Assembly: GCF_000758325.1 (NCBI RefSeq)
Contig: NZ_CP009459.1
Span: 1,860,001-1,924,000 of the forward strand
DNA length: 64,000 bases
From: Cedecea neteri
GTDB taxonomy: Bacteria > Pseudomonadota > Gammaproteobacteria > Enterobacterales > Enterobacteriaceae
Reading direction: 5' to 3'
The notes under the pieces were generated by a model that was not told the origin of the DNA, ran no database searches, and saw nothing but the letters and a program-made list of their open reading frames with translations. Positions 50,495-55,298 of this stretch are shown here, one piece after another. Position 1 is the stretch's first letter. Each line of letters opens with the position of its first letter. The position numbers were made by a program, and so were the translations under genes.

Positions 50495-51919
50495 ATGAGC
50501 ACAGAAATCAAAACTCAGGTCGTAGTACTTGGGGCAGGCCCGGCAGGTTACTCCGCAGCATTCCGCGCCGCGGATTTAGGTCTGGAAACCGTCATCGTAG
50601 AGCGTTACAGCACCCTTGGTGGTGTTTGTCTGAACGTCGGCTGTATCCCTTCTAAAGCGCTGCTGCACGTTGCTAAAGTTATTGAAGAAGCAAAAGCACT
50701 GGCCGAACACGGCATCGTTTTCGGTGAGCCGAAAACCGATATCGACAAAATTCGTACCTGGAAAGAGAAAGTTATCACTCAGCTGACCGGCGGCCTGGCA
50801 GGTATGGCCAAAGGCCGTAAAGTGAAAGTGGTAAACGGTCTGGGTAAATTCACCGGGGCTAACACCCTGGAAGTGGAAGGCGAAAACGGTAAAACCGTGA
50901 TCAACTTCGACAACGCTATCATCGCGGCGGGTTCCCGTCCGATCGAGCTGCCGTTCATTCCTCATGAAGATCCACGCGTGTGGGATTCCACAGATGCGCT
51001 GGAGCTGAAATCCGTACCTAAACGCCTGCTGGTAATGGGTGGCGGTATCATCGGTCTGGAAATGGGCACCGTATACCATGCGCTGGGTTCAGACATTGAC
51101 GTGGTTGAAATGTTCGACCAGGTTATCCCGGCTGCAGACAAAGACATCGTTAAAGTCTTCACCAAACGCATCAGCAAGAAATTCAACCTGATGCTGGAAA
51201 CCAAAGTGACTGCCGTTGAAGCGAAAGAAGACGGCATCTACGTTTCCATGGAAGGCAAAAAAGCCCCTGCAGAACCACAGCGTTACGACGCGGTTCTGGT
51301 GGCTATCGGCCGCGTGCCGAACGGTAAAAACCTTGATGCAGGCAAAGCCGGCGTTGAAGTTGACGACCGTGGCTTTATCCGCGTTGACAAACAGCTGCGC
51401 ACCAACGTGCCACACATCTTTGCTATCGGCGACATCGTCGGTCAGCCAATGCTGGCACACAAAGGTGTTCACGAAGGCCACGTTGCCGCAGAAGTTATCG
51501 CCGGGATGAAGCACTACTTCGATCCGAAAGTGATCCCATCTATCGCTTACACCGAGCCAGAAGTTGCATGGGTTGGTCTGACTGAGAAAGAAGCGAAAGA
51601 GAAAGGCATCAGCTACGAAACCGCCACCTTCCCGTGGGCTGCTTCTGGCCGTGCTATCGCTTCCGACTGCGCAGACGGTATGACCAAGCTTATCTTCGAC
51701 AAAGAGACTCACCGCGTTATCGGTGGGGCGATTGTCGGGACCAACGGCGGCGAGCTGCTGGGCGAAATCGGTCTGGCTATCGAGATGGGCTGTGACGCAG
51801 AAGACATCGCGCTCACCATCCACGCTCACCCGACGCTGCACGAATCCGTTGGCCTGGCGGCTGAAGTATTCGAAGGCAGCATCACCGACCTGCCAAACGC
51901 TAAAGCGAAGAAAAAGTAA
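50495..51919 (+). CDS. lpd: Dihydrolipoamide dehydrogenase (E3)
   Basis: A 474-residue FAD/NAD disulphide oxidoreductase shared by the pyruvate, 2-oxoglutarate and glycine cleavage complexes. FAD motif VVVLGAGPAGYSAAF is at residues 9-23, the redox pair GGVCLNVGC is Cys45/Cys50, the NAD motif MGGGIIGLEMGT is near residue 182, and the C-terminal HAHPTLHE holds the catalytic His. ATG 50495 (MSTEIKTQ) is chosen over the preceding ATG (50492) to match the E. coli length. AAGAGGT precedes the start. Confidence 0.97.
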   Translation: MSTEIKTQVVVLGAGPAGYSAAFRAADLGLETVIVERYSTLGGVCLNVGCIPSKALLHVAKVIEEAKALAEHGIVFGEPKTDIDKIRTWKEKVITQLTGGLAGMAKGRKVKVVNGLGKFTGANTLEVEGENGKTVINFDNAIIAAGSRPIELPFIPHEDPRVWDSTDALELKSVPKRLLVMGGGIIGLEMGTVYHALGSDIDVVEMFDQVIPAADKDIVKVFTKRISKKFNLMLETKVTAVEAKEDGIYVSMEGKKAPAEPQRYDAVLVAIGRVPNGKNLDAGKAGVEVDDRGFIRVDKQLRTNVPHIFAIGDIVGQPMLAHKGVHEGHVAAEVIAGMKHYFDPKVIPSIAYTEPEVAWVGLTEKEAKEKGISYETATFPWAASGRAIASDCADGMTKLIFDKETHRVIGGAIVGTNGGELLGEIGLAIEMGCDAEDIALTIHAHPTLHESVGLAAEVFEGSITDLPNAKAKKK

Positions 51920-51938
51920 CTTTCAGCGTTTGATAAAG

Positions 51939-51962
51939 CGGCCCTTTGGGGCCGTTTTTTTT
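51939..51962 (+). terminator. lpd intrinsic terminator
   Basis: Stem CGGCCC (51939-51944) with GGGCCG (51949-51954), loop TTTG, followed by eight T. Confidence 0.9.
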
Positions 51963-51967
51963 GCCCG

Positions 51968-51992
51968 TAAAAGGCCGCCCTTACGAGCGGCC
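51968..51992 (-). terminator. Terminator of the minus-strand small-peptide RNA
   Basis: On the minus strand GGCCGC (51992-51987) pairs with GCGGCC (51978-51973) and is followed by TTTTA (51972-51968). It lies just past the stop of the 39-codon ORF. The T run is short, so termination may be incomplete. Confidence 0.65.
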
Positions 51993-51998
51993 AGTAGC

Positions 51999-52118
51999 TT
52001 AATTGCCCAGGTTCAAAACGAACTGAACGGTAATGTCTGAAATATTCCAGCCACCCTGGCTCAGCGAAAGCAGTGAACCTAACAACAGAAGCAGCGCGTA
52101 CAGCAAACGCATTTCCAT
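51999..52118 (-). CDS. Small hydrophobic peptide, candidate type I toxin (39 aa)
   Basis: An ORF from ATG 52118 to TAA 51999-52001. The peptide starts MEMRLLYALLLLLGSLLSLS and ends QGGWNISDITVQFVLNLGN: a short charged start, a 15-residue leucine-rich hydrophobic stretch like a signal peptide or membrane anchor, then a polar/amphipathic tail. A second in-frame ATG (52112) would give 37 residues. AAAGGG lies 10 bases upstream of ATG 52118. It has its own promoter about 220 bases upstream and a terminator just behind it. I do not recognise the protein with certainty; layout and size resemble TimP (the RyfA-encoded toxin of Salmonella) or TisB-like peptides. A toxic role is inferred, not shown. 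Confidence 0.6.
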   Translation of the reverse strand: MEMRLLYALLLLLGSLLSLSQGGWNISDITVQFVLNLGN

Positions 52119-52182
52119 TGCGTGTATACCCTTTGGGCTACGGCGATCCCTTCTTCACCGGGAAAGGCAGAATCAGGCAAGT

Positions 52183-52198
52183 GTTTGAGGCTTGCCAC
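52183..52198 (-). promoter_or_regulatory. Predicted sRNA target site in the small-peptide mRNA leader
   Basis: The minus-strand RNA here is complementary over 16 consecutive bases (15 Watson-Crick, one G-U) to bases 52400-52415 of the divergent small RNA. It lies 65-80 bases before the ATG, clear of the ribosome-binding site, as expected for control through an upstream ribosome standby or folding site. Confidence 0.6.
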
Positions 52199-52308
52199 GT
52201 AGAGCGGTTGAGCTGCTCCCTGGCCCGGTGACTGGCTGCTACACCAGCGAAGCAGGCCAGACTCAAGGTTACGGTAAATAGCTTCTTCGACAAATCAACG
52301 TGTTAAGT

Positions 52309-52337
52309 TTGCAGTGAGTTACATTAATTTTTATAAG
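52309..52337 (+). promoter_or_regulatory. Promoter of the plus-strand small RNA
   Basis: -35 TTGCAG (52309-52314), 17-base spacer, -10 TATAAG (52332-52337). The predicted start is about 52344. The -10 bases are shared with the minus-strand promoter. Confidence 0.7.
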
Positions 52338-52357
52338 CCTGTACGCAAAAAATACAA
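52330..52357 (-). promoter_or_regulatory. Promoter of the minus-strand small-peptide mRNA
   Basis: On the minus strand -35 TTGTAT (52357-52352), 16-base spacer, -10 TATAAA (52335-52330). The predicted start is about 52323, giving a leader of roughly 205 bases. It overlaps the plus-strand promoter, so the two probably compete for RNA polymerase. Confidence 0.62.
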
Positions 52358-52484
52358 TTCATCTTGCTGTGATTCATTTTCAAATGCAGAATAGACAGCG
52401 TTTGGGGCTTGCCACAAAACATTTCCTTTCATCGTGTGCTACCACTTTGTCAGGGCAAACGAACCGCCGAAAGGCGGTTTTTTT
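52344..52484 (+). ncRNA. Candidate antitoxin-type small RNA
   Basis: A stretch of about 141 bases bounded by a good promoter and a strong terminator, with no ORF that I can support. It contains GTTTGGGGCTTGCCAC (52400-52415), which can pair with the leader of the divergent peptide mRNA; the flanking GCAGAAT (52386-52392) is also shared with the opposite strand of that leader (52167-52173). The T-rich 3' end would suit Hfq. Expression is predicted only. Confidence 0.62.
52462..52484 (+). terminator. Intrinsic terminator of the plus-strand small RNA
   Basis: AACCGCC (52462-52468) pairs with GGCGGTT (52473-52479) across a GAAA tetraloop, then T to 52484. No annotated gene lies upstream on this strand after the lpd terminator, so it points to an unannotated transcript. 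Confidence 0.9.
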
Positions 52485-52566
52485 GTGTCTGAAGGTCATA
52501 TCAAAAAGTAATCTATTCCCCCTTAACGATTCAGCAAAGTTTTAATGTTGCTTTTTTGTAAACAGA

Positions 52567-52595
52567 TTAACACCCCCTGAAAATCCTGCTATGCT
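52567..52595 (+). promoter_or_regulatory. Probable acnB promoter
   Basis: TTAACA (52567-52572) and TATGCT (52590-52595), 17-base spacer, giving a start near 52602 and a leader of about 100 bases. The leader ends in a GAGGAG ribosome-binding site (52685-52690). Confidence 0.72.
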
Positions 52596-52700
52596 GCCCG
52601 ACGCGGTACCGGGCATTTACCCTACAAACTGCTGTCTCACAGGAGCGTGAAGAGAGAGATCCGGTAGCGCCAAATGACAATGAGAGCGAGGAGAACCGTC

Positions 52701-55298
52701 GTGCTAGAAGATTACCGTAAGCACGTAGCTGAACGTGCCGCAGAAGGGATTGTTCCAAAACCCTTAGATGCCACTCAAATGGCCGCACTGGTTGAGCTGC
52801 TGAAAAACCCACCAGCAGGTGAAGAAGCATTTCTGTTAGATCTGATTACTAACCGTGTACCGCCGGGCGTTGATGAAGCCGCCTACGTGAAAGCCGGTTT
52901 CCTTGCAGCCATTGCCAAAGGCGATGCCACATCCCCGCTGATTTCCCCTGAAAAAGCCGTTGAACTGCTGGGCACCATGCAGGGTGGCTACAACATTCAT
53001 CCGCTGATTGACGCGCTGGATAACGAAAAGCTGGCACCGATTGCCGCCAAAGCGCTGTCCCACACGCTGCTGATGTTTGATAACTTCTACGACGTGGAAG
53101 AGAAAGCCAAAGCGGGTAACACCTACGCTCAGCAAGTGCTGAAGTCCTGGTCCGAAGCCGAATGGTTCCTGTCTCGCCCTAAACTGGCCGAGAAAATCAC
53201 CGTTACCGTCTTTAAAGTTACCGGTGAAACTAACACCGATGACCTGTCTCCGGCGCCGGACGCATGGTCCCGCCCGGATATCCCTCTACACGCCCTGGCG
53301 ATGCTGAAAAACGCCCGCGAAGGTATTGAGCCGGATCAAGCTGGCGTGATCGGCCCGATCAAGCAGATTGAAGCGCTGCAGAAAAAAGGTTTCCCGCTGG
53401 CCTACGTGGGCGACGTTGTGGGCACCGGTTCTTCCCGTAAATCTGCCACCAACTCTGTGCTGTGGTTCATGGGTGACGATATTCCGAACGTGCCGAACAA
53501 GCGTGGCGGCGGCGTTGTGCTGGGTGGAAAAATCGCCCCAATCTTCTTCAACACCATGGAAGATGCTGGCGCCCTGCCGATCGAAGTTGACGTTAACGAT
53601 CTGAATATGGGCGATGTGATCGACATTTACCCGTATAAAGGCGAAGTGCGTAATCACGAAACCGACGCGGTGATCGCTAACTTTGAACTGAAAACCGACG
53701 TGCTGCTGGACGAAGTGCGCGCCGGCGGCCGTATTCCGCTGATCATCGGCCGCGGTCTGACGACCAAAGCGCGCGAAGCGCTCAGCCTGCCGCATAGCGA
53801 CGTATTTGTTCAGGCGAAAGATGTTGCCGCCAGCACCCGTGGTTACTCACTGGCGCAGAAAATGGTTGGCCGCGCCTGTGGTGTGGAAGGTATTCGCCCT
53901 GGCGCTTACTGCGAACCGAAAATGACTTCCGTAGGTTCTCAGGACACCACCGGGCCAATGACCCGTGATGAGCTGAAAGACCTTGCCTGCCTTGGTTTCT
54001 CTGCGGATCTGGTCATGCAGTCCTTCTGCCACACCGCGGCTTATCCTAAGCCGGTGGACGTGACAACGCACCACACTCTGCCTGACTTCATCATGAACCG
54101 TGGCGGCGTGTCTCTGCGTCCGGGCGATGGCGTTATTCACTCATGGCTGAACCGCATGCTACTGCCGGATACTGTCGGCACCGGTGGTGACTCCCACACC
54201 CGTTTCCCTATCGGGATTTCCTTCCCGGCGGGTTCTGGTCTGGTAGCGTTTGCCGCAGCGACCGGCGTTATGCCGCTGGATATGCCTGAGTCCGTGCTGG
54301 TTCGCTTTAAAGGCGAAATGCAGCCGGGTATTACCCTGCGTGATTTGGTACATGCGATCCCGCTGTACGCGATCAAACAGGGCCTGCTGACCGTAGAGAA
54401 GAAAGGTAAGAAAAACATCTTCTCTGGCCGTATCCTGGAAATCGAAGGCCTGCCGACGCTGAAAGTTGAGCAGGCGTTTGAGCTGACCGATGCTTCCGCA
54501 GAGCGTTCTGCCGCAGGTTGCACCATTAAGCTGGATCGCGAGCCAATCGAAGAGTACCTGAATTCCAACATCGTGCTGCTGAAGTGGATGATTGCCGAAG
54601 GTTACGGCGACCGTCGTACGCTTGAGCGCCGTATTCAGGGCATGGAAAAATGGCTGGCAGATCCGCAGCTGATGGAAGCCGACGCTGATGCAGAATATGC
54701 GGCAGTGATCGACATCGATCTGAACGATATCAAAGAGCCAATCCTCTGTGCGCCAAACGACCCGGACGATGCTCGCCTGCTGTCCGACGTGGCCGGGGAG
54801 AAGATCGACGAAGTGTTTATCGGTTCCTGCATGACCAACATCGGTCACTTCCGTGCCGCCGGTAAACTGCTGGACAGCCACAAAGGTCAGCTGCCAACTC
54901 GCCTGTGGGTGGCGCCGCCAACCCGTATGGACGCGGCTCAGCTGACGGAAGAAGGCTACTACAGCGTGTTCGGTAAGAGCGGCGCGCGTATCGAAATTCC
55001 AGGCTGCTCTCTGTGCATGGGTAACCAGGCGCGTGTGGCAGATGGTGCGACGGTCGTGTCGACTTCAACCCGTAACTTCCCGAACCGTTTGGGAACCGGC
55101 GCGAATGTCTTCCTGGCGTCTGCTGAGCTGGCGGCTGTGGCTTCCCTGCTGGGCAAGCTGCCAACCCCGGACGAATATCAGACCTTCATGACTCAGGTTG
55201 ATAAAACGGCGGTAGACACTTATCGCTACCTGAACTTTGACCAGCTGTCTCAGTACACCGAGAAAGCGGACGGCGTCATCTTCCAGACCGCCGTTTAA
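52701..55298 (+). CDS. acnB: Aconitate hydratase B
   Basis: An 865-residue bifunctional aconitase/2-methylisocitrate dehydratase, the main TCA-cycle aconitase during growth; the apo-protein also binds mRNA. Order: HEAT-like helical domain (about 1-160), swivel domain ([19 protein letters not shown]), then three catalytic domains with cluster cysteines in GSCMTN (about 710) and PGCSLCMG (about 769 and 772). I chose GTG 52701 (then [15 protein letters not shown]), with GAGGAG upstream, which gives the E. coli length; an ATG nine codons earlier overlaps this ribosome-binding site. Confidence 0.95.

Follow-up and report, generated by a model that had tools for sequence, protein, structure and literature searches.

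The closest described system to the locus reported here is TimP/TimR of Salmonella, in which ryfA codes for the 38-aa protein TimP, which resides in the inner membrane and is toxic on overexpression, and a divergent sRNA, TimR, represses it via an 18-nt antisense stretch in the timP leader (Andresen et al. 2020, PMC7667032). In that work, the timP homologues in all species analysed are stated to have a flanking TimR-like sequence, and for that reason a further homologue is to be expected. The leader is described as having four stem-loops, of which SL4 lies over the Shine–Dalgarno sequence and SL2 is bound by TimR; a seven-pair pseudoknot between SL1 and SL3 is reported to be needed if the mRNA is to be translated and TimR is to bind efficiently (Eleftheraki and Holmqvist 2024, PMC11228461). 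TisB/IstR-1 and ZorO/OrzO have a similar general design, i.e. a divergent sRNA whose pairing site on the mRNA of a small membrane toxin lies at a long distance 5′ of a concealed ribosome site (PMC7667032). At the level of titles and abstract openings, the papers searched included none that describes a timPR next to acnB.

We have analysed a window of 64,000 nucleotides from Cedecea neteri (NZ_CP009459.1, positions 1,860,001 to 1,924,000; coordinates below count from its first letter), and we propose, with a probability of roughly 0.9, that the region between lpd and acnB is a divergent timPR type I toxin–antitoxin locus that works through the leader, pseudoknot and TimR mechanism set out below. 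A type I module at this site had been suggested by the initial annotation and is the best-supported reading, the family being TimP/TimR (the timP mRNA is ryfA). Of the three likenesses offered at that time, the one to TimP/TimR stands, and those to TisB/IstR and ZorO/OrzO are analogies only, not signs of relationship. Judged by homology and architecture, the C. neteri copy is a genuine, unannotated and divergent timPR. It adds one branch to a family already described and is not a new kind of system.

The features common to this locus and to TimP/TimR of Salmonella Typhimurium and E. coli K-12 are numerous: divergent genes, a leader of ∼140 nt, a possible signal sequence at the N-terminus, a GGWNIS region (found in several canonical TimPs), a TimR 5′ end that is antisense to SL2, a seven-pair SL1–SL3 pseudoknot, a hairpin over the Shine–Dalgarno region and a 3′ hairpin. 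The annotated TimR of K-12 pairs by nt 1 to 19 with leader nt 64-82, and the C. neteri TimR likewise pairs by its 5′ end. There are also differences. Canonical timPR, including that of K-12 itself, sits between sseA and sseB, whereas the C. neteri copy lies beside acnB; its peptide starts MEMR with two conserved ATGs, whereas canonical peptides start MKR; it falls below the Rfam and NCBIfam cut-offs; its predicted transcript starts are ∼140 nt apart, compared with 400 for the annotated ends in K-12; and its branch carries an extra conserved TGnAA-N5-TGnAA element. In what follows, "C. neteri type" denotes TimP or timPR of the MEMR kind found at this locus, as distinct from the canonical MKR kind.

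The 39-codon hydrophobic ORF reported earlier at 52118-51999 (minus strand) is present in the sequence, and its predicted TimP-like product is MEMRLLYALLLLLGSLLSLSQGGWNISDITVQFVLNLGN. A second in-frame ATG at 52112 would give a product of 37 aa; both ATGs (52118 and 52112) are conserved in the aligned homologues, and they fall at +142 and +148 counted from the predicted transcript start at 52259. By its hydropathy, the N-terminus may be a signal sequence (mean of 2.23 for residues 5-20), and both the start region and the GGWNIS motif are conserved. The proposed comparison of synonymous and nonsynonymous changes revealed purifying selection across related genomes: among 15 distinct 117-nt ORFs, taken from 18 after leaving out one that is frameshifted (L017), one that is shorter (L060) and one that is identical to another (L048, identical to L051), the NG86 dN/dS has a median of 0.22 and a maximum of 0.66 and is below 1 in 104/104 usable pairs (105 pairs in all, one with dS = 0), these pairs not being independent. 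Single-base codon differences in the reading frame number 907 synonymous to 444 nonsynonymous, compared with 157/1011 and 197/977 in the two alternative frames, again as pairwise counts that are not independent.

These numbers bear on the strongest rival explanation, namely that the minus-strand RNA is mainly a trans-acting regulatory sRNA (RyfA) to which the peptide is secondary. The peptide has indeed been reported to be dispensable for ryfA phenotypes in E. coli (PMC13188913); however, a codon-level constraint that holds in every usable pair, a synonymous excess confined to one frame, and a conserved start region and GGWNIS motif all argue against this explanation at the present locus, where we consider it distinctly unlikely.

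In the timPR reading, the ORF would be carried on a ryfA-like timP mRNA running from a predicted start near 52259 to its terminator (51968..52259, minus strand), an assignment that draws on the Rfam match described below and on a conserved −10 element. The predicted −10, TAACCT at 52266..52271 (minus strand; TAnnnT in homologues), was recognized by column conservation and is absent from the simple promoter scan, and the predicted start coincides with the first position of the ryfA model. The leader is therefore put at ∼141 bases by conservation, not at the ∼205 bases first suggested. The C. neteri leader folds into four stem-loops, all on the minus strand: SL1 (52220..52260); SL2 (52196-52176), which together with the TimR target GTGGCAAGCCTCAAAC (52198-52183) occupies 52176..52198; SL3 (52144..52175), supported by the fold and by module comparison; and SL4, GTAGCCCAAAGGGTATAC (52124..52141), which in the C. 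neteri fold holds the Shine–Dalgarno-like sequence AAGGG (52133-52129) and which varies between genera. The predicted pseudoknot is formed by CACCGGG on the SL1 side (52224..52230) and CCCGGTG on the SL3 side (52156..52162). An alternative long-range stem, in which CGTAG at 52142-52138 pairs with CTACG at 52202-52198, co-varies. This stem involves the foot of SL4 and may correspond to an alternative fold of those put forward for timP.

How well are these elements supported by comparison? Over 21 modules (L094 replacing L017, and without L079 and L081), 95.6% of the cells in SL2, SL3, the long-range stem and the pseudoknot are standard pairs, a figure that drops to 26.5-50.2% when the partners are slid by 1-3 columns out of the true register. 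Two-sided changes occur in 5 pairs, located in SL2, SL3 and the long-range stem. In 500 column shuffles, neither the percentage paired nor the covariation score was ever reached, the number of cells with a two-sided change was reached by 1 and the number of such pairs by 17, and the number of pair types was reached by 488. The pseudoknot is paired in 98.6% of cells with one-sided changes only. In SL1, 97.8% of cells are paired and no two-sided changes were found, and 447/500 column shuffles do as well; SL1 and the pseudoknot are thus conserved rather than proven by covariation. At the 3′ end, the minus-strand terminator claimed earlier holds up as a G+C-rich hairpin (∼51992-51973) followed by four T, a terminator-like feature (51969..51992) that aligns with the 3′ hairpin of ryfA and that is not among the calls of the terminator scan.

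On the plus strand, a TimR-like antitoxin sRNA of ∼87 nt is predicted at 52398..52485, with the antisense bases (52400-52415) close to its 5′ end; this assignment follows from the pairing and from the layout of K-12 TimR. The plus-strand terminator that had been noted before was found at 52461-52485 both by sequence and by the terminator scan. The predicted timR promoter, TTGCTG-17-CAGAAT (52364..52392), rests on conserved −35 and −10 columns and is absent from the simple scan. Across 18 aligned modules, the conserved promoter elements are the timP −10 (52271-52266, minus strand) and the timR −35/−10 (52364-52369 and 52387-52392, plus strand); the alignment of homologues used for promoter inspection left out L015, L018 and L040-L042. 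These candidates replace the two promoters of the initial annotation (52357-52330 on the minus strand and 52309-52337 on the plus strand), which are missing from the simple scan and whose hexamers, on inspection of the −10 elements, are not kept in homologues; the earlier pair may still provide extra starts, and the conserved candidates are themselves poor sigma-70 matches that are likewise unlisted by the simple scan. The plus-strand RNA is accordingly shortened from ∼141 to ∼87 bases, as conservation puts its start near 52398, and the predicted starts place the pairing stretch at the 5′ end of the sRNA, as with K-12 TimR.

The 16-base pairing reported earlier is borne out: 52400-52415 of the plus RNA forms 16 continuous pairs with 52198-52183 of the peptide mRNA leader, i.e. 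with leader nt 62-77, compared with a longest run of 15 and a mean of 9.8 in 500 dinucleotide shuffles of the leader. Among the 15 distinct modules of the 18, cognate TimR–leader duplexes have a mean energy of −28.0 kcal/mol (−33.0 to −20.3), compared with a mean of −16.4 for all other combinations, and the cognate pairing sum was reached by 0/20,000 permutations, a procedure that ignores relatedness. Every leader (15/15) pairs best with its own TimR, and 12/15 TimRs pair best with their own leader, ties being allowed in both cases; of the three exceptions, L057 and L050 prefer the leader of a close relative and L065 prefers the L051 and L062 leaders. By these comparisons, TimR and the leader target site change together across modules.

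The assignment to the TimP family was also examined with RNA and protein models. With the Rfam RyfA model, as had been proposed, a full-length minus-strand match to ryfA (RF00126) is obtained at 52260-51969 (model 1-296 of 296, E 1e-4), its score of 28.3 bits being below Rfam's own gathering threshold of 80. It is the best ryfA match in the whole genome (E 4.6e-5); weak matches elsewhere in that genome, the next best with an E of 0.1, were taken as chance. Members of the clade score up to 45.2 bits. The NCBIfam TimP model NF040796 gives no match to the C. neteri peptide at E up to 1, whereas two canonical TimPs match it at 49.5 and 45.0 bits (cut-off 45), and Pfam at E up to 1 matches neither the C. 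neteri peptide nor either canonical TimP. By hhalign, 8 peptides of the C. neteri type align with 10 canonical TimPs at 96.7% probability and E 3.7e-10 over 35 columns, a value that comes from a single comparison of two short, partly hydrophobic profiles. The locus has been overlooked by annotation because it lies below the Rfam cut-off and is missed by the NCBIfam TimP model; we treat NF040796 as too narrow and therefore file the peptide as a divergent member, a filing that is based on the profile match plus architecture and for which both curated thresholds fail. The case for homology comprises the profile–profile match, the GGWNIS motif, the leader with its SL2, SL3 and pseudoknot, and the divergent sRNA that pairs with SL2 by its 5′ end.

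Could the locus instead belong to a different type I family, such as TisB/IstR, ZorO/OrzO, Ibs or Ldr, and merely resemble timPR? The general anatomy, with its divergent sRNA, long leader, upstream pairing site and hydrophobic peptide, is common to several such systems, but at E up to 1 a scan of positions 51000-53500 with 4227 Rfam families gives ryfA and no other match, the peptide matches the TimP profile, and the sRNA pairs by its 5′ end with a leader that has the seven-pair SL1–SL3 pseudoknot published for timP (PMC11228461); we regard this possibility as very improbable. A chance ORF accompanied by chance hairpins in an ordinary intergenic gap can be dismissed as next to impossible, for while the numbers of promoter-like (2, compared with 0.9 in shuffles) and terminator-like (3, compared with 1.9) sequences in 51500-52900 are near expectation, the codon constraint and the antisense pairing that co-varies across genera are not what such a gap would give, and a sibling genome that is without the module has a clean gap.

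The timPR module thus identified has relatives within the genus and in other genomes of the family, as the proposed peptide search established. The peptide occurs in 7/8 genomes of the genus (one of the seven, G192, holding a truncated remnant) and in 16/198 genomes of the family (E up to 0.01); a profile of 14 TimPs of both the C. neteri and canonical types finds matches in 56/392 family genomes (E up to 0.001), and ryfA matches are present in 34/198 family genomes (E up to 0.01), 18 of them exceeding the cut-off. A DNA pattern scan, which may omit records near C. neteri's own genome, returned 10 records with the C. neteri type: Enterobacter pulveris DSM 19144, Enterobacter chuandaensis, Cedecea sulfonylureivorans, two Atlantibacter, Trabulsiella odontotermitis, Lelliottia sp., Enterobacteriaceae bacterium LSJC7, Enterobacter sp. 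Cy-643 and Enterobacteriaceae bacterium RIT693. Enterobacter pulveris belongs to Franconibacter. Searches for a second copy of the peptide in the same genome (E up to 10), for a mobile origin among plasmid and phage collections (peptide, E up to 0.01) and for the module DNA in E. coli genomes (E up to 1e-5) gave no match.

The genomic setting is constant on one side. acnB adjoins all 17 aligned loci of the C. neteri type and all 6 further ones, and the opposite flank is lpd or, in several genera, yacH. The suggestion that yacH replaces the module in E. coli K-12 is right insofar as yacH does occupy that interval in K-12, but several other genera carry yacH and timPR together. In other genera, the gap from lpd to acnB can also hold TimP-like ORFs of the MKR/MKG type (L040-L042, L093, L095), and thus the site hosts more than one branch of the family. 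Weak ryfA matches adjoin lpd in other genomes as well, e.g. in L054.

Tandem copies allow the antisense codes of neighboring modules to be compared. In G188, two modules of the C. neteri type (L023 and L009) lie 526 bases apart with differing codes, and their cognate duplexes (−29.4 and −25.6 kcal/mol) are more stable than the crossed ones (−13.9 and −18.3). The codes of the MKG-type tandem in G341 (L095) have partly diverged, with cognate energies of −40.0 and −35.1 and crossed energies of −26.9 and −32.3 kcal/mol. In the G115 tandem (L096), both leaders share one site, with which the TimR of the first copy forms a run of 18 bases and the stretch upstream of the second copy a run of just 10; in the G295 tandem (L097), the runs are 23 bases in one copy and just 11 in the other. 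Cognate and crossed pairing thus indicate diverged codes in 2/4 tandem pairs (G188 and G341), and each of the remaining pairs may have lost one of its antisense sites. Two side observations may be added. G188 has a further TimP copy on another contig, and in K-12 the interval between timR and ryfA (L069, 2957-3355) contains, by eye, what look like vestiges of another timP 5′ end and another timR, as a collapsed tandem duplication would leave.

Several genomes appear to record stages of decay. A natural empty site is found in G198 (L072), a member of the same genus, where the T-run of the lpd terminator joins the sequence that follows the timR terminator. G192 (L071), also of this genus, is without the bases matching 52054-52217, i.e. 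most of the leader and the start of the ORF, and has kept timR. In E. pulveris (G099), timP is frameshifted (possibly a draft-assembly error) and timR is present; the ORF of the congener G215 is intact. An intact timP with timR missing was not found among the 18 aligned modules, a set that was not gathered to find such cases. Loss in this order would be expected of a toxin that is costly to its host.

Between the two predicted promoters lies the direct repeat TGnAA-N5-TGnAA (52309..52323, minus strand), a candidate response-regulator site. It is in the same place within one base in 16/18 modules, compared with a mean of 0.1 and a maximum of 2 in shuffled sets, a contrast that overstates the case because this alignment also served to choose the pattern and because the modules are related and the shuffles ignore relatedness. 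For the 23 other ryfA-match loci examined, some of which are weak or chance matches, the 130 bases upstream lack the core pattern G.AA-N6-G.AA. The repeat resembles sites of the OmpR/CpxR type, the CpxR box being GTAAA-N5-GTAAA with half-sites 10 bases apart. A CpxR box scored by consensus in single sequences was rejected: the best scores were 7-8 of 10, compared with shuffled means of 6.5-7.3, and the result is not significant overall, as few of the 18 are uncommon in 200 shuffles (lowest 11 and 20 of 200); of the signals at this site, the strong one is the fixed position of the repeat. It is a tentative and rather doubtful idea that the repeat binds an envelope-stress regulator of the OmpR/CpxR type and that the acnB-side branch has its own transcriptional switch. 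In the Salmonella study, TimP activates a Cpx reporter and its toxicity is independent of CpxR (PMC7667032); given that activation, a regulator site, if true, would loop membrane damage to toxin control. A second conserved block, plus-strand GTACGCAAAA at 52341-52350, precedes the predicted timR start by ∼50 bases.

Taken with the Salmonella work, these features suggest how the locus would operate. The mRNA, read leftward from ∼52259, would fold into a leader of four stem-loops with the ribosome site hidden in SL4, and, by analogy with Salmonella timP, the SL1–SL3 pseudoknot would make it translatable, the product being a 37-39 aa inner-membrane peptide that is membrane-damaging when abundant. 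The divergent ∼87-nt sRNA, read rightward from ∼52398, would pair by its first ∼18 nt with SL2 and upset the pseudoknot, whereupon translation would be blocked. The ORF constraint, the leader elements, the co-varying pairing and the homology to TimP come from the sequence itself. From that same Salmonella work, we infer transcription, toxicity, membrane location and pseudoknot-dependent translation at the C. neteri locus; for the 39-aa peptide in particular, toxicity is suggested by homology.

The locus has several implications for the TimP/TimR family. Current Rfam and NCBIfam cut-offs miss a branch of it that sits beside acnB in genera such as Cedecea, Trabulsiella, Atlantibacter and Lelliottia, and the natural series within that branch, from intact modules through a broken toxin with the antitoxin kept to an empty site and to tandem copies whose codes diverge, allows one to read how a type I pair evolves. 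The codon-level constraint speaks to the open dispute over whether ryfA acts through its peptide. Additionally, the conserved element between the promoters is a candidate trigger that can be put to the test, and a site of the OmpR/CpxR type, if true, would supply the missing natural trigger of timPR.
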